64,000 nt of DNA from Psychromonas sp. B3M02 (GTDB taxonomy: Bacteria > Pseudomonadota > Gammaproteobacteria > Enterobacterales > Psychromonadaceae): assembly GCF_003318165.1 (NCBI RefSeq), contig NZ_QOCB01000100.1:1-64000 (forward strand), in the 5' to 3' direction. The position numbers and the translations under genes were made by a program. How positions within the stretch are numbered: the stretch's first letter is position 1; each line of letters begins with the position of its first letter. The notes beneath the pieces are model-generated. The model searched no databases and had not been told where the DNA came from. It was given only the letters and a program-made list of their open reading frames with translations. Positions 12,967-53,397 of the stretch are shown here, one piece after another.

Positions 12967-13818
12967 TTAAGTACGTCTAACAGGAAAGGTCATACAGTGT
13001 GGTCCGCCGCCGGTTTTTAAAATTTCAGTGGAATTTAATTCAAATACAGTGAAACCTCTGTCTCTCAGTGCTTGATTCACCTTGATATTAGTGGCTAATG
13101 AAATCACCTTTTTATTACCTAATGCCTGCAGGTTACAAAAGTGCTTAAATACGCCGGCTTCTTCAATCTTAATTAAATCGTAACCTGCTTTATCCAAATA
13201 CTCCTGAAAGGCTGTTGGCAAACCTTCGTAATAAGTGACTGCGGTTTTTTCACCAATAATATTAAAGATCATATCTAAATGCAGATACTCAGGTTTTGAT
13301 TGCACCGATAGCACTTGATAACCCAGTGGAGCTAATTGTGCTCTAATGCTCTCAATACCTTGTTCGTTAGAACGTTGTAGCACGCCTATGGCTAAGGTTT
13401 TATCGTCTAATTGCCAAAAATCACCGCCTTCAACTACACCTTCCTCACAAGTTGCAATCAAAGGTACACCTAACTCTCTCATTTTGGCGGCGTATTTTTG
13501 TGACTCTTCCTGCCTTACTTTTTCTTTAAAGCGACCTAGGACATAACCTTCTTTTAAGTTAAAGCCAAAATCACGTGCAAACACTTGACTGTCTAAGGCT
13601 TTAGTTGCTTCTAGTAACTCTACTTTGACACCATTGCTTTCATAAATAGAGATAAGCTGCTGATGTTCTGCAGCACATTTTTCAAGGTCAATTTTTTGCC
13701 CTTGGTCTAGCCAGTCTTCGGCTATTTTATTAATAGGGTTCAGGTCAAGATGGGTAGGCGGGCATAGTAAAACTTGCTGCAATACACCAGTTGCCGATCT
13801 AACATAACATTGAGTCAT
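12967..13818 (-). CDS. Arginine deiminase/dimethylargininase-family hydrolase
   Basis: A 283-residue guanidine-modifying enzyme with the pentein fold, which hydrolyses the guanidino group of arginine or methylarginines to citrulline. The visible catalytic set is EGGDF (130-134), His180 in YLHLD and nucleophile Cys275 in GGGPHCM near the C-terminus; ARDF (81-84) fits the substrate-binding Asp region. At 283 residues it is much shorter than ArcA (about 410) and nearer to DDAH (about 255), so the substrate could be arginine or dimethylarginine. It is the last gene of a minus-strand operon behind ctlX (10-base gap) and an amino-acid ABC transporter. That context favours use of imported arginine-type substrates for nitrogen or carbon. 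Confidence 0.8.
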   Translation of the reverse strand: MTQCYVRSATGVLQQVLLCPPTHLDLNPINKIAEDWLDQGQKIDLEKCAAEHQQLISIYESNGVKVELLEATKALDSQVFARDFGFNLKEGYVLGRFKEKVRQEESQKYAAKMRELGVPLIATCEEGVVEGGDFWQLDDKTLAIGVLQRSNEQGIESIRAQLAPLGYQVLSVQSKPEYLHLDMIFNIIGEKTAVTYYEGLPTAFQEYLDKAGYDLIKIEEAGVFKHFCNLQALGNKKVISLATNIKVNQALRDRGFTVFELNSTEILKTGGGPHCMTFPVRRT

Positions 13819-41371: not shown

Positions 41372-42406
41372 TTAAGATTTGGGTGGCGGAGCACAAGATT
41401 CTCTCACCACCAGCTCAGTGGCTAAAGGTTGTGGTAATGGAATGTCTTCTCCATTCAACCTCGAGACTAAATACTTAGCAGCAAGCATCCCCATCTGTTC
41501 TTGTGGCGTTCTGATCGTGGTTAATCTAGGCGTAATATTAGAAGCTAAAGCCATATCATCAAAACCAACAATCGAGACTTCTTCTGGTATTTTAATGCCC
41601 ATATTTTTAGCTTCAAAAATGACCCCATAAGCGAATGGTTCAGAGCCACAAATAATGGCTGTCGGTTTATTTGCTCGCGACATCAATAAACGGAATGCTT
41701 CGCGCCCTTCTTCGATACCAAATTTAGATTGTAATAAGTTATCGTCAGATAAGCTCAAATTTTGCTTTTCTAACGCGGCTCTCACCCCTATCAAACGGTT
41801 TAATGCACGATCATTATTCTCAGTGAAGCCAGAGATCATCGCGAATTTAGTGTGCCCAAGATGTAATAGATAACGTGTAATGTCTCCAGCGGCGGCTTGA
41901 TTATCGAAACCAATACACGGATGTTCAAAATTATCATCCACAGCCCATGTTAATACATAGGGAATAGACTTAGCTTGGAGTAACTCATAAATGTGTTTAT
42001 CGCGAGATTGACCAACCAATATTAACGCATCCATCCCATGTGAGACCATTTGCGTAATATGTTCATACTCTTTTTCGATGTTGTAGTTATTGGACGCCAG
42101 CATCATATTATACCCTGCCGTCGAAATTTGATTTTGAAACACTTCAATGGTTCGCCCAAATAAACTACTATCCAAAGAGGGGATGACAGCTCCTATCATC
42201 CTCGAACGCTTTGAAGCTAATGTGCGAGCGGCGGCATGTGGAACATAATTTAACTGTTTGATCGCCGCATCTATTTTCTGCTTTGTTCTGTCACTCACAA
42301 CAGCGGGATCATTTAAATACCGTGAGACGGTAACTGACGCAACACCCGCCGCAATGGCAACGTCTTTCATGGTCGGATCAGCCGACAAATTGTTATGCGC
42401 TTTCAT
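41372..42406 (-). CDS. LacI-family transcriptional regulator
   Basis: A 344-residue LacI/GalR repressor. The HTH and hinge are visible: TMKDVAIAAGVASVTVSRYLNDPAVVSDRTKQKI (12-45) and NYVPHAAARTLASKRS. The periplasmic-binding-protein-like effector domain runs from about 66 (IGAVIPSLDSSLFGR) to the end. GAGG precedes the ATG. It is divergent from the dimethylglycine dehydrogenase cluster across a 502-base region that contains a LacI-type operator candidate, so control of that cluster is likely. The effector is unknown; most relatives sense sugars, so a non-sugar ligand here would be unusual. Confidence 0.9.
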   Translation of the reverse strand: MKAHNNLSADPTMKDVAIAAGVASVTVSRYLNDPAVVSDRTKQKIDAAIKQLNYVPHAAARTLASKRSRMIGAVIPSLDSSLFGRTIEVFQNQISTAGYNMMLASNNYNIEKEYEHITQMVSHGMDALILVGQSRDKHIYELLQAKSIPYVLTWAVDDNFEHPCIGFDNQAAAGDITRYLLHLGHTKFAMISGFTENNDRALNRLIGVRAALEKQNLSLSDDNLLQSKFGIEEGREAFRLLMSRANKPTAIICGSEPFAYGVIFEAKNMGIKIPEEVSIVGFDDMALASNITPRLTTIRTPQEQMGMLAAKYLVSRLNGEDIPLPQPLATELVVRESCAPPPKS

Positions 42407-42816: not shown

Positions 42817-42908
42817 TTTTGATTTTAATTAAGCTGAATCATCATATTTGCCATGAACCTTACAAACATAATTAAGAAAATTGATACCCATACTTTAGGA
42901 GAGTGTTT

Positions 42909-45338
42909 ATGAAATCGCATTACAAAGTTATCGTTATTGGTGGTGGTATTGGGGGATGTAGTACGCTTTACCATCTAACCCAGGAAGGATGTACTGACGT
43001 AGCCTTAATCGAACGTAATGAATTAACTTCTGGGACCACGTGGCATTCAGCGGCACAAGTAACAAACTTTGGTGCAACACAAACGATGGTTGGTTTAAAA
43101 AGCCACAGTATTCAGCTTTATAAGAAATTAGCAGCAGACCCAGAGAATCCAATTAACTATCACCACGCCTCAGGTGGTATTCGCCTTGCTTCAACACAAG
43201 AGCACCTTGATGGTTATAATCACTTCATTTCATTAGCGAAAGGAATGGGGGTTAACTTTGAACTATTAGACCCTGCTGAATGTGCTAAACGTCACCCGTT
43301 AATTGAAACACATGAATTAGTTGGTGGGCTTTGGGATCCGCTAGATGGCGATATCGACCCGGCACAATTAACACAGGCATTAGCGCGTGAAGCACGTAAG
43401 GCAGGTGCTGAAATTTTCCGTCATAATCCAGTAGAAGATATTCACCAAAAAGAAGATGGTACTTGGGTACTGCAGACTAAAAATGGTGAAGTGAGCTGTG
43501 ACAAATTAGTTAATGCCGGTGGTTACCGTGTTAATGAGCTAGGCAAAATGCTGGGTATTGAATATCCGGTTATCTCAATGGAACACATGTACTTCTTAAC
43601 GGAAACTATTCCAGAAATTGAAGCGTTCGGTAAGCGTGTCCCACTATTACGTGATCCACTTGATGACTTCTACAGCCGCCAAGAAAAAAATGGTTTATTA
43701 GTCGGTATATATGAACAACGTTGTAAAACATGGGGTATGGATGGCATTGATCCTAACTTCGTGAATGCACTTTGTCCTGATGACCTTGACCGTTGTTTAG
43801 ATAACATGGAACGTGTATTTGAACGTATGCCATGCTTAGCAGAAACCGGTATTCACAGTATCGTAAACGGCCCGATCACTTACTCTGCAGATGGTAACCC
43901 GCTCGTTGGTAAAACCCCTGGTTTTGATAACTTATACTCAATCATCGGCTTACGCGCTGGTTTGGGTGAAGGTGGTGGTCACGGTAAGATCCTTGCTGAA
44001 ATTATCGTACACGGTGAATCAGAATGGGACACATGGTGTATTGACCCGGCTCGATTTACATCGCATGCCAACACAGAGTTTACAGCATTAAAATCCATTG
44101 AAGATTACCAAAACGAATTCCGCTTCCACATGCCGCATGAAGCACGCCCTGCTGGCCGTTTAGCTAAAACAACGCCTATTTACACTACGTTAAAAATGCA
44201 ACATGCAGAATTTGGTGTGGTCAATGGTTGGGAACGTGCAATGTTCTTCAAACCTGATGCTGATTACAAGTTTGAACATAGCTTCCGCTTCACTGACACT
44301 GACAAGAAAATCGTTGCTGCAGAAGTAAAAGGCGTCACTGAAAACGTCGGTATTATGGAAGTCAATGGCTTTAACCGTTTTGAAATTAAAGGGCCAAAAG
44401 CAGCAGAATGGCTAGACAGCTTAATGTGTTCAAATATTCCAAAGACAGTGGGCCGTATTGGTCTTTGTTACTTCCTAACTGAAAAAGGTAACGTATTAGG
44501 CGAAGCGACTATCGCTAAACTATCTGAAGATACATTCTGGTATGGCTCTGCTGCCGCAGCTGAATATAAAGATATGGATTGGTTACGTTCACACCTACCT
44601 AAAGAAGGTGTTGAAATTACTTCTCTAACAAATACTCACACAATTTTATCTGTAACCGGTCCTAAATCACGCGATTTAATCGCGAGCCTATCACCTCGTA
44701 CAGATTGGTCTAACGAAGCTTTCCCATGGTTAACCACTAAACCGGTATACATCGGTCATGCACAAGCACAAGCATTACGCGTGAGCTTCAGTGGTGAATT
44801 AGGTTGGGAGCTACATGTTCCAAATGAACAATTATTACTCGCACATACGCTATTAACTGAAGCAGGTGTTGATTACGGTCTTATCCCATTCGGTTCAATG
44901 GCACTAGAGTCGATGCGTCTTGAGAAAGGCTACCGCCATTGGAAAGCAGACCTTATCACTGAGTTTGACCCCTTTGAAAGTGCATTAGATCGCTTCACTA
45001 AGATTGATAAAGAAGCTGACTTCCCAGGTAAAGCGGCATTGCTTGCTAAGCAAGGTCAACCAATGCGCAGAAAATTTGTCACCATCACTGTCGATTGTGA
45101 TATTGCAGCAGCACATCCTGGCGACTCTATTTGTGTCGATGGAAAAGTAGTCGGCACGGTGACCTCTGCAGCTTATGGATACCGTGTAGAGAAGAACATT
45201 GTACTTGGCTTTATTGACCCAGAATACTCGGTCGAAGGAAGTGAAGTAGATGTAGAAATCATAGGGACAGCTTACCCAGCGATTGTTGTGAGTGATTGTC
45301 TTTACGATCCGAAGAACGAAAAAGTGAGAAGTAAGTAA
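42909..45338 (+). CDS. Dimethylglycine/sarcosine dehydrogenase-like flavoprotein (DAO plus GcvT domains)
   Basis: An 809-residue two-domain enzyme that should oxidatively demethylate dimethylglycine or sarcosine, passing the methyl carbon to tetrahydrofolate. The N-terminal DAO domain has the FAD loop GGGIGG (11-16) and the TTWHSAA segment, whose His46 aligns with the residue that holds FAD covalently in mammalian dimethylglycine dehydrogenase. NGPITYSADGNPLVGKTPG lies near 330. The C-terminal half (from about 430) is a GcvT/aminomethyltransferase fold, which binds folate. The ATG at 42909 has an AGGAGAG site; a GTG lies two codons upstream. The genes that follow (ETF, ETF-QO, purU) fit an ETF-linked dehydrogenase. 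Sarcosine oxidase is less likely because ETF genes are present. Confidence 0.85.
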   Translation: MKSHYKVIVIGGGIGGCSTLYHLTQEGCTDVALIERNELTSGTTWHSAAQVTNFGATQTMVGLKSHSIQLYKKLAADPENPINYHHASGGIRLASTQEHLDGYNHFISLAKGMGVNFELLDPAECAKRHPLIETHELVGGLWDPLDGDIDPAQLTQALAREARKAGAEIFRHNPVEDIHQKEDGTWVLQTKNGEVSCDKLVNAGGYRVNELGKMLGIEYPVISMEHMYFLTETIPEIEAFGKRVPLLRDPLDDFYSRQEKNGLLVGIYEQRCKTWGMDGIDPNFVNALCPDDLDRCLDNMERVFERMPCLAETGIHSIVNGPITYSADGNPLVGKTPGFDNLYSIIGLRAGLGEGGGHGKILAEIIVHGESEWDTWCIDPARFTSHANTEFTALKSIEDYQNEFRFHMPHEARPAGRLAKTTPIYTTLKMQHAEFGVVNGWERAMFFKPDADYKFEHSFRFTDTDKKIVAAEVKGVTENVGIMEVNGFNRFEIKGPKAAEWLDSLMCSNIPKTVGRIGLCYFLTEKGNVLGEATIAKLSEDTFWYGSAAAAEYKDMDWLRSHLPKEGVEITSLTNTHTILSVTGPKSRDLIASLSPRTDWSNEAFPWLTTKPVYIGHAQAQALRVSFSGELGWELHVPNEQLLLAHTLLTEAGVDYGLIPFGSMALESMRLEKGYRHWKADLITEFDPFESALDRFTKIDKEADFPGKAALLAKQGQPMRRKFVTITVDCDIAAAHPGDSICVDGKVVGTVTSAAYGYRVEKNIVLGFIDPEYSVEGSEVDVEIIGTAYPAIVVSDCLYDPKNEKVRSK

Positions 45339-45368
45339 ATAAATAAAACTATAACCATGGAGAGTAAT

Positions 45369-46322
45369 ATGAAAAGGGTAACAAAATTATGCTTAGCAAT
45401 ATCACTAGGTTTAACAGGCGTTTCAGCACAAGCAGCTGACCTTGTTTTAGGGGTGCCAAGTTGGCCATCAGCAGGAGTTACTTCGAATGTGATTAAAATC
45501 GTACTAGAAGAGAACTTAGGCTTAGATGTGGGCATGCAAAGCGGCACTAACCCAATTATTTGGGAAGCGATGGACCGAGGTTCAATGCAACTTCATCCTG
45601 AAGTTTGGTTACCCAATCAACAAAATCTCTACCAGAAGTATGTGGTTGAAAATGGCACGGTTGTGAAAAACCAACATAGTGTAGAAGCAAAACAAGGGCT
45701 GTGTATTACTAAGGAGATGTCAGATAAATACGATATTAAATCGATTTACGACCTGACCGATCCTGATAAATCAGCCCTATTAGATAGCGATGGTGATGGT
45801 GAAGGTGAAATTTGGGCTGGTGAACCTGGCGCTGCTTCAACGACTGTCGAAATCATCCGCGCTAAAAGCTATGGCTATGACCAAACCATGAAGTTAGTAC
45901 AAGTGGATATTCCAGTTAACTTTGCTTCTCTGGATGCTGCAGTACAAGCTAAGAAACCTTATGTTTTCTCTTGTTACACACCACATTATATCTTTGCTTT
46001 GTATGACATCGTGTTCTTAACAGAACCAAAACATAACGATGCAACATGGAAAACAGTCCAACCAACAGACGATCCGGATTGGTTAGCAAAATCTAATGCA
46101 GATTCAGGTTGGCCTGTTACTTATGTGCAAATGCACTATGCAAAATCATTGGAAAAAGATCAGCCAGAAGCAGCTGATATCCTGAAAAACTTCGCAATCA
46201 CCTCAGACATTATGAGCGAGTGGAGTTATTCAGTAGTGGTTGATAAGAAATCACCAGCCGATGTTGCAGCGGAATGGGTTAAGAATAATCAAGATATAGT
46301 CAACGCTTGGTTAGGTCTATAA
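45369..46322 (+). CDS. proX: Glycine-betaine-type ABC transporter, substrate-binding protein ProX
   Basis: A 317-residue periplasmic protein of the OpuAC/ProX family. The Sec signal ends near SAQA (about 22). Aromatic-rich segments such as GVPSWPSAG, NPIIWEAMDRGSMQLHPEVWLPN and YVFSCYTPHYIFALYD are typical of the Trp/Tyr cage that binds quaternary amines. The ATG at 45369 has GGAGAG just upstream; an earlier ATG at 45357 overlaps that site. It follows the flavoprotein by 30 bases. In this context the substrate may be dimethylglycine, sarcosine or glycine betaine. Confidence 0.85.
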   Translation: MKRVTKLCLAISLGLTGVSAQAADLVLGVPSWPSAGVTSNVIKIVLEENLGLDVGMQSGTNPIIWEAMDRGSMQLHPEVWLPNQQNLYQKYVVENGTVVKNQHSVEAKQGLCITKEMSDKYDIKSIYDLTDPDKSALLDSDGDGEGEIWAGEPGAASTTVEIIRAKSYGYDQTMKLVQVDIPVNFASLDAAVQAKKPYVFSCYTPHYIFALYDIVFLTEPKHNDATWKTVQPTDDPDWLAKSNADSGWPVTYVQMHYAKSLEKDQPEAADILKNFAITSDIMSEWSYSVVVDKKSPADVAAEWVKNNQDIVNAWLGL

Positions 46323-46420: not shown

Positions 46421-47467
46421 ATGACGACAGATGTAATTCAATTAGAAAATGTATGGAAAATATTTGGCGATAGAGCCGAAGAAGCAATGCAAGCAGTTAA
46501 AAGCGAAGGCTTAGATAAGGCCACTGTACTCGAACGTTTTGGTTGTGTAGTTGGTATTGCAGATGTTTCATTCAAAGTAGCACGAAGTGAAATATTTTGT
46601 ATTATGGGCCTTTCGGGTAGCGGTAAGTCTACGCTTATTCGCCACCTTAACCGCTTAATTGAGCCTTCAGCAGGCTTGGTTAAAGTACTCGACCAAGATA
46701 TGTCTGCATTAACTCCTAATGCGCTTCGAGAAACGCGTGCCAAAGATATCGGCATGGTGTTTCAACACATGGCATTATTACCACATCGTACCGTTGCTGA
46801 TAATGTCGCTTTCCCATTGGAAGTACAAGGTTTACCTAAAGCAGAACGTTGGGAAACATCAATGCATGCTTTATCACTGGTTAATTTAACCGGTTATGAG
46901 TATCGACTGCCCCATCAACTATCAGGGGGGATGCAACAACGTGTGGGCTTAGCCAGAGCACTAGCCAGCGACCCTGAAGTATTATTAATGGATGAACCTT
47001 TTAGTGCACTCGATCCGTTAATCCGCCATGAACTACAAAACCAATTCGTACAACTAACTAAAAACTTACAAAAAACCACCGTATTCATTACCCATGACTT
47101 AGACGAAGCAATCCGCATCGGTGACCGTATTGCTATTATGAAAGATGGGTGTTTGATCCAAATAGGCACACCGGAAGAGATTGTGATGCAACCTGCTGAT
47201 GATTATGTTGCAGACTTTGTAAAAGGTATTTCTAACCTCAAGTTAATCAATGCCCACTCTATTATGCTAGCCATTAACGATACGACATTACCTATTTCCA
47301 TTGATAAAACAGCCGCACTGCGTGCAGATGAAAATACTAGCCTAGAAGCATTAATCGACCTCTCTGTCACCACTACATTACCTATCATAGTAACTAATGA
47401 TGCGGGCCAAGATATAGGTGTGATCAGTAAAGATACCCTGCTTAAAGGCATTAAGGGAGAAGAATAA
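46421..47467 (+). CDS. proV: Glycine-betaine-type ABC transporter, ATPase ProV
   Basis: A 348-residue ABC ATPase of the quaternary-amine uptake group. It starts with a ProV-type N-terminal helix extension (VWKIFGDRAEEAMQAVKSEGLDKATVLE), then Walker A GLSGSGKST (63-71), HQLSGGMQQRVGLARAL, and Walker B VLLMDEPFSALDP. A CBS-like C-terminal region (about 270-345) fits the osmosensing part of ProV/OpuAA, though somewhat shorter than in E. coli ProV (400). It ends 1 base before proW. Confidence 0.92.
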   Translation: MTTDVIQLENVWKIFGDRAEEAMQAVKSEGLDKATVLERFGCVVGIADVSFKVARSEIFCIMGLSGSGKSTLIRHLNRLIEPSAGLVKVLDQDMSALTPNALRETRAKDIGMVFQHMALLPHRTVADNVAFPLEVQGLPKAERWETSMHALSLVNLTGYEYRLPHQLSGGMQQRVGLARALASDPEVLLMDEPFSALDPLIRHELQNQFVQLTKNLQKTTVFITHDLDEAIRIGDRIAIMKDGCLIQIGTPEEIVMQPADDYVADFVKGISNLKLINAHSIMLAINDTTLPISIDKTAALRADENTSLEALIDLSVTTTLPIIVTNDAGQDIGVISKDTLLKGIKGEE

Positions 47468-47468
47468 G

Positions 47469-48998
47469 ATGAATACTCAACAAACAGCTTCGCTTAACCA
47501 AGTCGATTATACGCAACCCATTCAACACTTTACTCAACGTCAAAGTCGTTATTATCAAGGGCATTTTACTAAGATCCAAACGGACACTCGTTTGCATATC
47601 TCTTTTAACTTTTTTGCCGCTTTATTTGGCCCGCTATGGGCTGCTTCACGCAGTGTGTGGGGATTCTTTTGGGTGAGTGCTATTGCTATTTTAATCTCAT
47701 CCATTTTACTTGGGCAAGGCATCTGGGGTGAAGCAGGAGGCGGTAAACTTGCTCAAGCAGACCGTTTATTTGCTAAGTCTCAAGAGATGGCCACTAAAGG
47801 GCAAGCCGCACTAAACAATGGAGAAGCCAACGCTAAGGCTTTCTTTCGTAACTCCGATAATCTAAGAAGAGCTGCAGAAAAAGCAGTGCTCGCTGCCGAA
47901 GAGAATGCTAAAGGCGCTAGTCAAAACGCTATTTATGGGGGCTTACTATTATTTATTATCTTCCTTATTCAAGGTTTTACCGCCAATGCTGTTTACGAGA
48001 AACAATATTGTCGCTGGCGACAAGACCCGGAGGTCGGCAGCGGTTTCCATATTAAAGCACTGATCTGTGGCATCGCTATTCTGGCCTTTATTTATCCATT
48101 AACGCTATACCGTTTTATTTCCGCAGAACAAATCAGCTGGTTAGTGGAGTTTCCTTCGGATAAAACTATTTTTAACACCACTGCCAATTGGCTTAATTCA
48201 ATGTTCGACTTCCTGGCGCTTAATGGTGCGAACTTCTTTGATGCTATCACACAAGTAATTAACCTTTTCCTAGATGCAATTGAAACATTATTAGTAGGTA
48301 CACCTTGGCCTGTGATCATGATGTTAATCGTGTTTACATCATGGCGCATCTCAGGCTACAAAGCCGCTTTTTATACTGCAATTGCCCTTTCTTACCTGGC
48401 GTTTTTTGGTTACTGGGAAAAGAGTATGGCGACCATCTCTTTATTAGGCGCTGCTGCGGTAATTTGTGTTGTTGTGGGTGTACCGCTGGGAGTGTTATGT
48501 GCCAAAAACAAAACTATTGATTCAATTACTAAACCTGCGCTGGATTTCATGCAAACCATGCCCGCTTTTGTTTACTTAATTCCAATCATTGCATTCTTCG
48601 GCACAGGCAAACCACCAGGTGTGTTAGCGACTATTATTTTCGGTATGCCGCCGGTAGTACGCTTAACAACATTAGGCATTCAACAAGTGCCCGCATCGAT
48701 TGTAGAAGGTGCCCTAGCCTTTGGTTGTTCACGTAAAAAATTATTACTGGATGTGGAATTACCATTAGCAAAAGAGAGCATTTTGGCCGGTATTAACCAA
48801 ACTATTTTAATGTGTTTATCAATGGTGGTTATCGCGTCATTGATCGGTGCAGAAGGCTTAGGAACCGACGTACTGCAAGCACTGCAGTTTGCCGCAAAAG
48901 GACAAGGTTTATTAGCAGGTTTAGCGATTCTATTTTGCGCGATTATGATTGACCGCATCATTCAAGGCTTATTTAAACCCAAAGAAAAAACAGAATAA
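47469..48998 (+). CDS. proW: Glycine-betaine-type ABC permease ProW with an unusual N-terminal extension
   Basis: A 509-residue permease, much longer than E. coli ProW (354). The C-terminal MetI-type core spans about 300-505 with the EAA-loop segment EGALAFGCSRKKLLLDVELPLA. The N-terminal part is not typical. Residues 30-85 contain FNFFAALFGPLWAASRSVWGFFWVSAIAI, which resembles DUF2628/YigF-type membrane domains. Residues 95-150 form an Ala/Asn/Glu-rich segment likely to be a coiled coil (LAQADRLFAKSQEMATKGQAAL). Residues 155-175 and 195-215 are further hydrophobic segments. It is coupled to proV by a 1-base gap. The core call is secure; the role of the extension is unknown. Confidence 0.85.
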   Translation: MNTQQTASLNQVDYTQPIQHFTQRQSRYYQGHFTKIQTDTRLHISFNFFAALFGPLWAASRSVWGFFWVSAIAILISSILLGQGIWGEAGGGKLAQADRLFAKSQEMATKGQAALNNGEANAKAFFRNSDNLRRAAEKAVLAAEENAKGASQNAIYGGLLLFIIFLIQGFTANAVYEKQYCRWRQDPEVGSGFHIKALICGIAILAFIYPLTLYRFISAEQISWLVEFPSDKTIFNTTANWLNSMFDFLALNGANFFDAITQVINLFLDAIETLLVGTPWPVIMMLIVFTSWRISGYKAAFYTAIALSYLAFFGYWEKSMATISLLGAAAVICVVVGVPLGVLCAKNKTIDSITKPALDFMQTMPAFVYLIPIIAFFGTGKPPGVLATIIFGMPPVVRLTTLGIQQVPASIVEGALAFGCSRKKLLLDVELPLAKESILAGINQTILMCLSMVVIASLIGAEGLGTDVLQALQFAAKGQGLLAGLAILFCAIMIDRIIQGLFKPKEKTE

Positions 48999-49059: not shown

Positions 49060-49809
49060 ATGAAAATATTAATTATGGTAAAACGAGTAACCGATCCAAA
49101 TGTGACGATTAGACCTAACACGGACAGTAGTAATGTTGACCTGACTAATGTCAAAATGGCAATGAACCCTTTCTGTGAAATTGCCACCGAAGAGGCTGTT
49201 CGTTTAAAAGAAGCAGGTATCGCTTCTGAAATTATCGTTCTGTCTATCGGTGATAAACAATCTCAAGATCAAATCAGAACGTCACTTGCAATGGGCGCTG
49301 ACCGAGGTATTTTGATTGAAACAGACGCCACGTTAGAGCCACTTAATATCGCGAAGCTAGCCGCTAAAGTGATTGAAGAAGAAGAGATTGATCTCGTCTT
49401 ACTGGGTAAACAGTCTAGTGACAAAGATAACAACCAAACAGGACAAATGTTAGCGGCCATCAAAGATTGGGGACAAGCAACATTTGCCTCTAAATTAGAT
49501 ATTAATAATGAAAAAGCGACAGTAACACGTGAAGTTGATACTGGCTTGCAAACCATTGAACTGACTTTACCGGCAGTCGTTACCTGTGACTTACGTTTAA
49601 ACACTCCTCGTTTTGCTTCTTTACCTAATATTATGAAAGCAAAACGTAAACCGTTAGTGGTTAAGCCAATCGAAGAATTTGGTCTAGATTTAACACCTCG
49701 CTTTAAAATGTTAAATGTCGAGTCGCCACAAGTACGTGAAGCGGGTGATATTTTAGGCTCTGTTGATGAGCTACTTGAAAAACTAAAAACAACTGAAGGA
49801 GTACTGTAA
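49060..49809 (+). CDS. etfB: Electron transfer flavoprotein beta subunit
   Basis: A 249-residue ETF small subunit that binds AMP and passes electrons from dehydrogenases to ETF-QO. Family features include MKILIMVKRVTDPNVTIRP at the start, MNPFCEIATEEAVRLKEAG, VLLGKQSSDKDNNQTGQMLAAIKDW and the TVTREVDTGLQ segment. The stop overlaps the etfA start by one base (TAATG), so the two are translationally coupled. Its place here implies service to the dimethylglycine dehydrogenase. Confidence 0.93.
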   Translation: MKILIMVKRVTDPNVTIRPNTDSSNVDLTNVKMAMNPFCEIATEEAVRLKEAGIASEIIVLSIGDKQSQDQIRTSLAMGADRGILIETDATLEPLNIAKLAAKVIEEEEIDLVLLGKQSSDKDNNQTGQMLAAIKDWGQATFASKLDINNEKATVTREVDTGLQTIELTLPAVVTCDLRLNTPRFASLPNIMKAKRKPLVVKPIEEFGLDLTPRFKMLNVESPQVREAGDILGSVDELLEKLKTTEGVL

Positions 49810-50735
49810 TGACTATTTTAATTATCGCAGAGCACGATAACAGCAGCCTAAAAGAGATCACTCTGAATACAATTACAGCAGCAACAGAAATTGGCGGCGA
49901 TATCGATCTATTAATCGCAGGTGAAACATGTACTGCAGCAGCAGAGGCTGCAGCGAAAATCAGTGGCATCACACGTGTTTTAGTCGCTGATAAGCCTTGT
50001 TATAACGGACAACTAGCCGAAAATGTAGCAGCACTCATTATGTCGATAGCCAGTAACTATACCCATATACTTGCTCCATCAACAGCTAATGGCAAAAACG
50101 TATTGCCACGCGTCGCAGCAAAACTCGATGTGTCCCTTTTATCGGATGTTATTTCTGTCGAAAGTCCAGATACGTTCAAACGTTCTATTTATGCAGGTAA
50201 TATTATTGCTACTTTACAATCGCTTGACCCAATTAAACTACTCACGATTCGCGGTACATCTTTTTCTCCTTCAGAACAAAATGGAAGCGCAACCATAGAG
50301 GCAGTAGATGGCGCCTTTGATGAAGCATTATCTCAATTTATTAATAACGATACAGTCGTCAATGAACGCCCTGAGTTAACCTCTGCAAAAATCGTTATTT
50401 CGGGTGGTCGTGGAATGCAAAATGGGGAGAACTTCTCCATGCTAGAAAAAGTGGCGGATAAGATTGGAGCGGCGGTAGGTGCGACACGTGCGGCAGTAGA
50501 TGCAGGCTTTGTACCTAATGATATGCAAGTGGGTCAAACCGGTAAAATTGTTGCACCTGACTTATATATCGCAGTTGGTGTGTCTGGTGCCATCCAACAT
50601 TTAGCGGGGATGAAAGAATCAAAAGTGATTGTTGCTATCAATAAAGATCCTGAAGCTCCTATTTTCCAAGTCGCTGATTATGGAATTGTTTCGGATCTAT
50701 TCGATACACTACCTGAACTAGAAAATGCACTATAA
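49809..50735 (+). CDS. etfA: Electron transfer flavoprotein alpha subunit
   Basis: A 308-residue ETF large subunit with the FAD-binding C-terminal domain: [60 protein letters not shown] and the terminal [21 protein letters not shown] are all canonical. It pairs with EtfB. It is coupled to etfB by an overlapping stop and start and lies 40 bases before ETF-QO. Confidence 0.94.
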
Positions 50736-50774
50736 GCGTTAACTATATTTACTCATTAATAAAGGAGACCAGCA

Positions 50775-52427
50775 ATGCGTGAATCAATGGAATTTGATGT
50801 CGTTATCGTTGGTGCAGGACCGGCAGGTCTCTCTACGGCCTGTCGATTAATGCAACAATCACAGAAAGAAGAGCGAGAGCTGAGCGTTTGTGTCATAGAG
50901 AAAGGCTCAGAGGTAGGTGCTCATATTTTTTCTGGAGCAGTCTTTGAAACACGCGCATTAGACGAACTCTTTCCAGATTGGAAAGAGCGTGGCGCACCAC
51001 TCAATACGCCAGTGACTAGCGATGAAATTTACCTATTAAAGAATGCAGAAAAGGCACAAAAATTACCTAATAGCTTAGTCCCTAAAACCATGCACAATGA
51101 AGGTAACTACATCATCAGTGTAGGTAACCTATGTCGCTGGTTAGCAGAACAAGCAGAAGAATTGGGCGTGGAAATTTTCCCTGGCTTTCCCGCAGCAGAT
51201 ATTTTGTATGGCGATGATGGCGAAGTGAAAGGCGTGATCACTGGTGATATGGGAATCGATGCAAAAGGAGAGGAAAAAGCGGACTACATGCCAGGCATGG
51301 AGTTACATGGTAAATACACCATTTTCTCTGAAGGGTGCCGTGGCCACTTAGGCAAACAATTAATTAAGCAATATAACCTTGATAGTGAATCAGATACCCA
51401 ACATTACGGTATTGGACTTAAAGAGTTATGGGAAATCGATCCAAGTAAACATAAGCCAGGCTTAGTGGTACATGGTGCTGGCTGGCCATTAACGAAAGAA
51501 ACAAGCGGTGGGTCGTTCCTTTATCACGCTGAAAACAATCAAGTAATGGTAGGTATTGTCATTGATTTGAGTTATTCAAACCCTTACATCAGTCCATTTG
51601 ATGAACTGCAACGTATGAAGCACCACCCTATTTTTAAAGACACATTAGAAGGCGGCACGCGTATTTCCTACGGTGCACGTGCGATTGCTAAGGGTGGCTT
51701 GAACTCCTTACCTAAGATGCACTTCCCGGGAGGGTTATTAATTGGCTGTGATGCAGGGACATTAAACTTTGCCAAGATAAAAGGCACACATACGGCAATG
51801 AAAAGCGGCATATTAGCAGCAGAAAGTATTTTTGCAGCCCTGTCTAGTGAAACGCCTGTGAGCAATGAATTAAGTTCATTTACAGATGCCTTCAAAGCTT
51901 CTTGGTTGCATGAAGAGTTACATCAAACACGTAACTTTGGCCCCGCTATGCATAAGTTTGGTACTTACATGGGTGGTGCTTTCAACTACTTAGATCAAAA
52001 CTGGTTCAAGGGAAAACTGCCTTTTACCCTGCATGATACTAAGCCAGACCATGAACAGCTGAAACCAGCTGCACAGTGTACTGATATTACTTACCCTAAA
52101 CCTGATAATAAAATCAGCTTTGATAAGCTTTCTTCTGTGTTTATTTCTAATACAAACCACGAAGAAGATCAGCCTTGTCACCTTAAATTACAAAGCCAAA
52201 CTATCCCTATAGAAAAAAATCTCGCTTTATTTGCAGGTCCAGAAGCACGCTTTTGCCCTGCAGGGGTGTATGAATTTGTTGAAGAACCAGAAAGCAAAGC
52301 ACAACAACTGCAGATTAATGCGCAGAACTGTTTGCATTGTAAAACATGCGATATCAAAGACCCAACTCAAAATATTACTTGGCAAGTACCAGAGGGGTTA
52401 GGAGGGCCTAACTACCCGAATATGTAA
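50775..52427 (+). CDS. Electron transfer flavoprotein:ubiquinone oxidoreductase
   Basis: A 550-residue membrane-associated flavo-iron-sulfur protein that takes electrons from reduced ETF and gives them to ubiquinone. The N-terminal FAD loop is VGAGPAGLSTA, a membrane-binding middle domain follows, and the C-terminal [4Fe-4S] domain has CPAGVYEF and CLHCKTCDIKDPTQNITW with four cysteines. The ATG at 50775 has AAAGGAG. The presence of dedicated ETF and ETF-QO genes beside a DMGDH-like enzyme mirrors the route used for choline breakdown in mitochondria. Confidence 0.95.
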   Translation: MRESMEFDVVIVGAGPAGLSTACRLMQQSQKEERELSVCVIEKGSEVGAHIFSGAVFETRALDELFPDWKERGAPLNTPVTSDEIYLLKNAEKAQKLPNSLVPKTMHNEGNYIISVGNLCRWLAEQAEELGVEIFPGFPAADILYGDDGEVKGVITGDMGIDAKGEEKADYMPGMELHGKYTIFSEGCRGHLGKQLIKQYNLDSESDTQHYGIGLKELWEIDPSKHKPGLVVHGAGWPLTKETSGGSFLYHAENNQVMVGIVIDLSYSNPYISPFDELQRMKHHPIFKDTLEGGTRISYGARAIAKGGLNSLPKMHFPGGLLIGCDAGTLNFAKIKGTHTAMKSGILAAESIFAALSSETPVSNELSSFTDAFKASWLHEELHQTRNFGPAMHKFGTYMGGAFNYLDQNWFKGKLPFTLHDTKPDHEQLKPAAQCTDITYPKPDNKISFDKLSSVFISNTNHEEDQPCHLKLQSQTIPIEKNLALFAGPEARFCPAGVYEFVEEPESKAQQLQINAQNCLHCKTCDIKDPTQNITWQVPEGLGGPNYPNM

Positions 52428-52530
52428 TGAAACTTAAGCGATGGTGAATACATTTTCAAGCATGTTTCACCTTCATCAACTAACAGTGTAATGCTTCTAT
52501 TTGAAGCTAAAAATATATAAGGCATTAACA

Positions 52531-53397
52531 ATGGCAACTGAAAAACCTAAAGAATTTATTTTTACCGCAACATGCTCAGCAAGCAGTAACATAGTCGCTT
52601 CTGTTACTTCATTTTTATCAGGGCGAGGCTGTTATTTAAGTGAACTATCTCAATTTGATGACCCTACTACCAAACGCTTCTTCATGCGTGCCGTCGGTTA
52701 TATTGAATCGGGGGACCACACCTTTGAAGATCTCAGCAAAGAGTTTCCAGAAGTTGCCGAAAAATTCGATATGGATTGGAAATTAGAGCCCGCTGATAAA
52801 CCGTGTAAAGTACTATTAATGGTGAGTAAATTCGATCACTGTTTAGCCGATCTTTTATATCGCTTACACAAAGGTGAAATCAATATGGAAGTGACTGCGA
52901 TCGTCTCTAACCATAAAGACTTACGCCCTATGGCAGAGCGTGAAGGGATCCGTTTTATCTACTTACCTGTTACCAAAGAAAACAAACCAGAACAAGAAAA
53001 AGCGTTAATGGAAATTGTTGAAGAAACGGGCACAGAATTAGTCGTATTAGCACGTTATATGCAAATTTTATCTAATGAACTATGTGACAAATTAGCGGGT
53101 CGAGCGATTAATATTCATCACTCTTTCTTACCTGGTTTTAAAGGTGGAAAACCTTATCACCAAGCTCATGAACGTGGTGTGAAACTGATTGGAGCAACAG
53201 CTCACTATGTAACTTCAGACCTTGATGAAGGCCCTATCATCGAACAATCGGTGCAGAATGTTGATCACACCTTCTCACCAGAATCACTGGTTGCGGTTGG
53301 TCGTACAACAGAAACCGTGGCATTAGCAAAAGCGGTAAAACTACACACGCAAAGCCGTGCTTTTGTATACGGTAATAAAACGGTTATTTTCCGTTAA
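52531..53397 (+). CDS. purU: Formyltetrahydrofolate deformylase PurU
   Basis: A 288-residue enzyme that hydrolyses 10-formyl-THF to THF and formate, releasing folate for reuse. It has an N-terminal ACT-type regulatory domain (about 10-85), then a formyltransferase-like domain with NIHHSFLPGFKGGKPYHQAHERGVKLIGATAHYV and SDLDEGPIIEQ carrying the catalytic Asn, His and Asp. The ATG at 52531 has AAGG; the open frame runs 10 codons further. It is last in the dimethylglycine cluster, consistent with removing C1 units from demethylation as formate. Confidence 0.94.
   Translation: MATEKPKEFIFTATCSASSNIVASVTSFLSGRGCYLSELSQFDDPTTKRFFMRAVGYIESGDHTFEDLSKEFPEVAEKFDMDWKLEPADKPCKVLLMVSKFDHCLADLLYRLHKGEINMEVTAIVSNHKDLRPMAEREGIRFIYLPVTKENKPEQEKALMEIVEETGTELVVLARYMQILSNELCDKLAGRAINIHHSFLPGFKGGKPYHQAHERGVKLIGATAHYVTSDLDEGPIIEQSVQNVDHTFSPESLVAVGRTTETVALAKAVKLHTQSRAFVYGNKTVIFR

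Follow-up and report, generated by a model that had tools for sequence, protein, structure and literature searches.

The 64,000-nucleotide stretch of Psychromonas sp. B3M02 analyzed here (the window) very probably encodes the permease of a ProU/OpuA-type ABC importer, from a subfamily whose members have a DUF2628 membrane domain fused in front of the permease core. The extension consists of the two helices of DUF2628, a helical hairpin inserted in the loop between them, and a third membrane helix; permeases carrying it, which occur in marine and other proteobacteria, are a distinct, long-established subfamily of ProU/OpuA-type importers rather than an oddity. The overall explanation that we favor, with moderate confidence, is a DUF2628-fused permease whose extension acts as a docking or packing platform in a nutrient importer, although the platform role on its own is put forward tentatively.

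The permease gene (47469-48998, + strand) is an intact open reading frame of 509 amino acids, as the original prediction had it, and no stop codon interrupts the frame. Its core, residues 238-503 (48180-48977, +), includes a BPD_transp_1 domain at residues 337-500 (87.5 bits against a Pfam cut-off of 26.4) and aligns with OpuA as well as with the models for ProW and ChoW, which agrees with the fusion to an ordinary ProW core that had been proposed; residues 1-225 have no counterpart in these models or in OpuA. Position 65 of the 356 positions of the NCBIfam ProW model aligns with permease residue 238. The best NCBIfam matches of the core were ChoW (TIGR03416, 278.1 bits, cut-off 363) and ProW (NF008196, 235.9 bits, cut-off 439), and the permease thus scores under both curated equivalog cut-offs. 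Foldseek placed OpuA (7ahh/7ahd) over the core, with an E value of 8.5e-15 for 7ahh_A, and the core is 43-44% identical over 265-268 columns to OpuA of Lactococcus lactis (7ahc, 7ahd, 7ahh). OpuABC has no DUF2628 part ahead of its core, as its residue 11 already aligns with residue 238 of the window permease. No solved structure resembled the extension at E<=0.001. PHROGs gave a strong match for the core only, and residues 64-96 gave E 0.0029 with phrog_21275, a family of unknown function. Phage records searched by tblastn gave 21 matching records, none over 80% of the protein, and the 10 rows listed all begin at residue 229 or later.

The notion that the additional residues are an artefact of a wrong start codon or of fused reading frames has negligible probability and is already refuted by conservation. 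The ATG lies 1 base after the stop codon of the ATPase gene and is preceded by 15 in-frame sense codons (frame 524, protein 509), and in relatives the permease gene overlaps or adjoins the ATPase stop, with the conserved extension beginning there. These features, together with the conservation among relatives, identify the extension as a genuine part of the gene and not an over-called start. It is common to 18 full-length aligned relatives from about residue 21 on, residues 1-20 being weakly conserved (mean pairwise identity 30%). The nearest named relative, also from Psychromonas, is 97% identical across the full permease.

DUF2628 (PF10947) is the best Pfam match of the N-terminal part, at residues 39-74 or 39-75. 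Against a gathering score of 23, the match reached 18.6 bits with the whole protein, 24.7 bits with residues 1-262, and 25.4 bits with residues 1-225, while a six-frame genome scan gave 21.4 bits, under the cut-off; judged from this single sequence, the match is borderline. Once families of sequences are compared, homology of the extension to DUF2628 is clear. Eighteen of 24 homologous extensions matched DUF2628 at E<=0.1 (best 1.1e-7) and six did not. An hhalign comparison of the extension family with 36 DUF2628 proteins from other genomes gave 97.0% and a score of 70.9 over 79 columns, covering the first helix only, when the hairpin columns were kept; with these columns removed, the alignment extended over 108 columns and both membrane helices, at 98.2% and a score of 86.7. 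Thirty column-shuffled decoys scored 16.5 or less against that 86.7, and the permease core scored 18.6. A fused relative without the hairpin (G104; such relatives are called coil-less below) matches DUF2628 positions 18-93 at 23.9 bits, over the cut-off, and the coil-less extensions (L135-L139) align with the hairpin-bearing ones at 99.8% in hhalign. DUF2628 scans also recover two long ProWs of the host's class, L064 and L068, independently of the extension profile. The DUF2628 proteins share with the extension a pair of membrane helices, an opening motif ..W.AF.FGP.W... and a closing motif G.(A)N; unlike the permease, the 36 compared have no permease core (none matches the core profile) and, by eye, no helical loop insert. 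The DUF2628 relationship claimed in the original prediction therefore stands. That prediction was to fail if the extension aligned as the ordinary N-terminus of a known long ProW subfamily with no match to DUF2628; the first half of this describes what was found, but the second does not. In the E. coli control genome there was no DUF2628 match over the cut-off. A second match in the genome of the host (L051, G000:C113; 13.5 bits, E 0.29) is at chance level and lies in an ABC permease that is PhnE-like by eye, and a DUF3413 match of the extension (E 0.0099) likewise looked like chance.

The extension starts with a predicted cytoplasmic N-terminal part and an amphipathic helix bearing the DUF2628 motif YY...F..I ... 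FN..AALFGPLW..R (residues 1-63; 47469-47657, +). The first membrane helix of the DUF2628 hairpin follows (residues 64-86; 47658-47726, +), and then an Ala/Glu/Lys-rich helical hairpin, probably periplasmic, that is missing from coil-less relatives (residues 87-149; 47727-47915, +). The second DUF2628 membrane helix ends in AN..YE..Y..WR (residues 150-185; 47916-48023, +) and leads into a cytoplasmic turn and the third extra membrane helix (residues 186-217; 48024-48119, +). An AlphaFold model of the extension alone (24 rows; pLDDT 82.2, pTM 0.67) has helices at residues 15-22, 26-38, 48-60, 64-85, 91-116, 122-185, and 195-217. In the full-length model the long helix is divided into 122-148 and 150-185; since this model is weak (pLDDT 70.7, pTM 0.43), no packing of the extension against the core was read from it. 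The Ala/Asn/Glu-rich, coiled-coil-like stretch noticed earlier accordingly corresponds to two helices, which the full-length model predicts at 91-116 and 122-148, and the further hydrophobic segments noticed ahead of the core correspond to helices at about 155-177 and 195-217.

Membrane proteins follow the positive-inside rule, and the core of E. coli ProW has its N-terminus outside. Over 24 rows, the turn at residues 178-194 averages 3.5 Lys+Arg against 1.1 Asp+Glu, and the hairpin averages 8.5 Lys+Arg against 10.9 Asp+Glu. Read in the light of both points, these charges place the hairpin in the periplasm. We infer a cytoplasmic N-terminus, a helix at 64-86 leading out, a periplasmic hairpin at 91-148, helices at 155-177 leading in and at 195-217 leading out, and then the core. 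In 78 of 89 rows the two DUF2628 motifs stand 112-115 residues apart; five coil-less rows are among the 11 unscored. Three coil-less rows, scored with a slightly altered pattern, have a spacing of 57. The hairpin insert is thus almost constant in length.

Permeases of this kind occur well beyond the host. A scan of 84,980 species with two short patterns returned 96 stretches, of which 19 were confirmed as extended loci, from Psychromonas, Zobellella, Granulosicoccaceae, Chromatiales, Roseovarius, Marivivens, and others. The extension continues into a permease core in all 19; the permease is complete in 18 and cut by a contig end in one (L032). Among the host genome and 23 others of its genus, three carry an extended permease, namely the host, G018, and G013, where it is split by contig ends. 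In profile surveys, one order had extended permeases in 40 of 148 genomes (a remnant in one case) and another in 23 of 61; as 60 of these 61 encode a permease core of any such kind, the extension marks a minority. In the host's class, 6 of 185 genomes gave a match, of which one is truncated at a contig end and another is a weak candidate. When 398 genomes of the phylum were surveyed with a profile built from three rows, 11 matched, and six of these matches were real, that of the host among them. The other five are not extended permeases: G131, G336, G425, and G211 encode other proteins, and G219 has a broken remnant (L060), in which a 196-aa frame covers part of the extension and the match contains a stop. 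A DUF2628 scan picked out 12 genomes, comprising the host, the two with complete extended permeases (L064, L068), one with a permease cut by a contig end (L071), six with different proteins (L065, L066, L067, L072, L073, L074), and two with unreadable loci (L069, L070), which were excluded from the profile comparison. Among 72,556 plasmid records, the extension alone matched 12 at E<=0.001 and at least 80% of the whole protein matched 15, the matches including the megaplasmid of Ruegeria pomeroyi DSS-3. The stretch from the FAD oxidoreductase gene through the ATPase and permease genes had no near match among plasmids by megablast. Near-full plasmid matches are annotated as "ABC transporter permease subunit" or "proline/glycine betaine ABC transporter permease", plain names that hide the additional domain in the records.

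The core table held 134 rows, of which five were removed before tree building (four with fewer than 220 aligned residues, one duplicate). In the resulting tree of 129 cores, a single branch with support 100/99 parts 86 extended cores (81 with the hairpin, 5 coil-less), most of them found through the extension, from 43 plain ones. The plain relatives on their separate branch lack such an extension, as do the ProW and ChoW models. A single fusion event is the simplest reading, though not a proven one. In a partial check on 20 loci from core-based matches, 20 of 21 frames were nearest plain cores and none had the extension; a tandem protein (L225, 713-aa frame) was slightly nearer extended cores (233 versus 226 bits). 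The 20 plain loci were hand-picked, 19 from core matches plus the second ProW of the host genome, and 16 of the 19 have frames too short to hold an extension, so that its absence there is expected.

Conservation is uneven along the protein. Mean pairwise identity is 56% for residues 21-63 (153 pairs, 18 rows), 44% for the hairpin, and 80% for the core, one near-copy (L031) being omitted from the count. Being more variable than the core and missing in five relatives, the hairpin cannot be essential to every member. A fused domain that is merely retained by descent, with no selected function, would also be expected to be less conserved than the core, as the extension is. We nevertheless regard such a neutral passenger as highly improbable, as 11 residues are invariant in 24 rows (F21, Y29, F33, I36, N47, A50, A51, G54, P55, W57, and R61) and the loop at 87-149 keeps a length of 61-64 residues in the same rows. 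No member of the branch without the extension was met either, a weak argument given that most rows were found through the extension.

The gene neighborhood suggests that an N-methyl compound, for instance dimethylglycine, sarcosine, or glycine betaine, is imported to be demethylated. First in the operon is an FAD oxidoreductase with folate-binding GcvT domains, putatively a dimethylglycine/sarcosine dehydrogenase-like enzyme (42903-45338, +; DAO, FAO_M, GCV_T, GCV_T_C). It is followed by a ProX-type periplasmic binding protein (OpuAC, 45357-46322, +; PF04069, 190 bits) and a ProV-type ATPase of 348 aa (46421-47467, +), which thus share the operon with the permease. Downstream of the extended ProW lie genes for ETF beta, ETF alpha, and ETF:quinone oxidoreductase, in that order (49060-52427, +; Pfam ETF, ETF_alpha, Fer4_ETF_QO; 53, 56, and 68% identity to annotated genes of L237), and for a PurU-like formyl-THF deformylase (52501-53397, +; Formyl_trans_N; 58% identity to the annotated purU of L237). 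A divergent LacI-family regulator precedes the operon (41372-42406, -; LacI and periplasmic-binding-protein-like domains; 60% identity to the LacI gene of L237). A plasmid of an Antarctic Pseudomonas carries the same gene set in its public annotation, plus FolD, and ten window genes, FolD and LacI to PurU, match that plasmid at 53-74% identity.

The ATPase partners of extended permeases are short. Counted from the start aligned to the window ATPase, they measure 344-352 aa in all 85 scored rows (the window locus being counted twice), and one annotated plasmid example is 375 aa; those beside plain permeases measure 391-420 aa in 46 of 55 rows and 339-373 aa in nine. CBS domains were matched at E<=0.1 in 7 of 37 extended-system ATPases scanned out of the 85 (best E 0.03), against 23 of 33 plain-system ATPases scanned out of the 55 (best 7.1e-11), the other ten of the 33 giving no match. 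Tandem CBS domains on the ATPase mark osmoregulated ProU/OpuA systems, but in the window ATPase none was matched at E<=0.1; by eye, the tail after its nucleotide-binding domain resembles half a CBS unit. The host genome also encodes an ordinary ProW without an extension, whose ATPase has two CBS stretches (35.6 bits). Short, CBS-poor ATPases speak against a salt sensor on this subunit like that of OpuA. Together with the folate-linked demethylation genes nearby, they make nutrient uptake likelier than osmoregulation. The osmolyte importer that the original prediction had in mind is consequently less likely, given the DAO/GcvT, ETF, ETF-QO, and PurU-like genes, the ATPase free of CBS matches, and the separate plain ProW with its CBS-bearing ATPase.

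The same data bear on a regulatory role, in which the extension would sense ionic strength, membrane state, or a ligand in place of the ATPase's tandem CBS domains. The short lengths and scarce CBS matches on the extended side are what such a sensor would entail, and they are compatible with, but do not show, that the extension took over control from CBS domains. As all extended systems fall on one branch, the link between extension and short ATPase is a single association, one event and not many. Moreover, nine of the 55 plain ATPases are short as well, ten of 33 lack a CBS match, one extended-system ATPase reaches 375 aa, and the operon appears catabolic. We consider a sensor quite improbable.

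The gene neighbors of other extended systems indicate that the domain is not tied to one substrate. The window DAO/GcvT neighbor scores 139 bits against the TMAO demethylase model (cut-off 1100), whereas other extended systems adjoin near full-length TMAO-demethylase-like proteins with 1024, 1030, and 1094 bits, each slightly short of that cut-off. A TMAO demethylase gene beside TmoXWV is the typical context of that importer; the window system adjoins none, unlike some extended pumps, which have a TMAO-demethylase-like gene next to them. Compared by component set, the window system is like TmoXWV and DmpXWV in combining an OpuAC binding protein, an ATPase, and a permease, the composition that passages of PMC10030565 and PMC9870897 give for these TMAO and DMSP importers of marine bacteria. 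The R. pomeroyi DSS-3 megaplasmid (SPO_RS20990-21000) has the same layout, with a permease of 524 aa that carries the whole extension (299.8 bits against the extension profile), but, unlike in the window, the neighbors are arginase-family and agmatinase genes. The substrate of this system (L236:5871-11563) may be a guanidino or arginine-derived compound. Its binding protein is equated here with SPOA0231, as this is the sole megaplasmid-tagged OpuAC in the relevant passage of PMC10030565 and its number fits the position. According to that passage, SPOA0231 bound no DMSP by calorimetry, and an excerpt of PMC9038784 lists it in the proline row with a noon/night transcript ratio of 43.3.

In OpuA the binding protein is fused to the permease, and the ATPase has CBS domains. 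The window importer most probably operates in the same way as OpuA, in that the binding protein delivers the substrate and two ATPases drive two permease cores, each carrying a three-helix module of which two helices are DUF2628, with two copies per pump. The hairpin and the three extra helices may flank the pore, the hairpin lying in the periplasm beside the ProX docking site, where the platform would serve both the periplasmic binding protein and the permease dimer. Such a pump would be a nutrient importer for an N-methyl compound rather than an osmosensing one. Besides the sensor, the main competitor, and a rather unlikely one, is that the extension aids assembly, helping to insert the core with its N-terminus outside, and has no role in transport. 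Three membrane helices, an odd number, do stand ahead of a core that begins outside in E. coli ProW, and DUF2628 domains also exist as separate, mostly small proteins; however, plain ProW cores, including that of the host genome, manage without an extension, and a loop of 61-64 residues would seem unnecessary for insertion.

Beyond the docking or packing platform, a bolder proposal is that DUF2628 and the periplasmic hairpin form a new control or docking module of type I ABC importers, replacing CBS gating or capture by a fused binding protein, that was fused once and then spread through proteobacterial importers of methylated amines and of other betaine-like or guanidino compounds. We think this unlikely, but if true it would give a DUF2628 domain its first function, as far as the literature searched shows. 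The literature searched gave no function for DUF2628, which is named in a kinase protein in part of PMC3355149 and is also mentioned in PMC8303149, and yielded nothing on a ProW with an N-terminal extension; the consulted sections of work on TMAO and choline systems (PMC9870897, PMC8918994, PMC13390433, PMC4744692) do not mention it. Since the domain is fused to a pump of known mechanism and occurs in the genetically workable marine bacterium R. pomeroyi DSS-3, its function is testable, and the extended pumps probably import compounds important to marine carbon and nitrogen cycling.

Some extended loci depart from the layout of the window. In L034 (6992-10104), tandem genes for two extended permeases follow one ATPase gene, an arrangement suggestive of a heterodimeric pump. 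The coil-less extended permease of L139 (6846-8645), of 600 aa, adjoins a TMAO-demethylase-like gene and has, by eye, about 100 or more extra residues between the DUF2628 part and the core. Seven loci (L034, L035, L039, L041, L044, L045, and L046) contain, within about 4 kb, a gene 26-28% identical to that at 12970-13818 of the window, and the window gene and its L045 counterpart both match the arginine deiminase and DDAH families.
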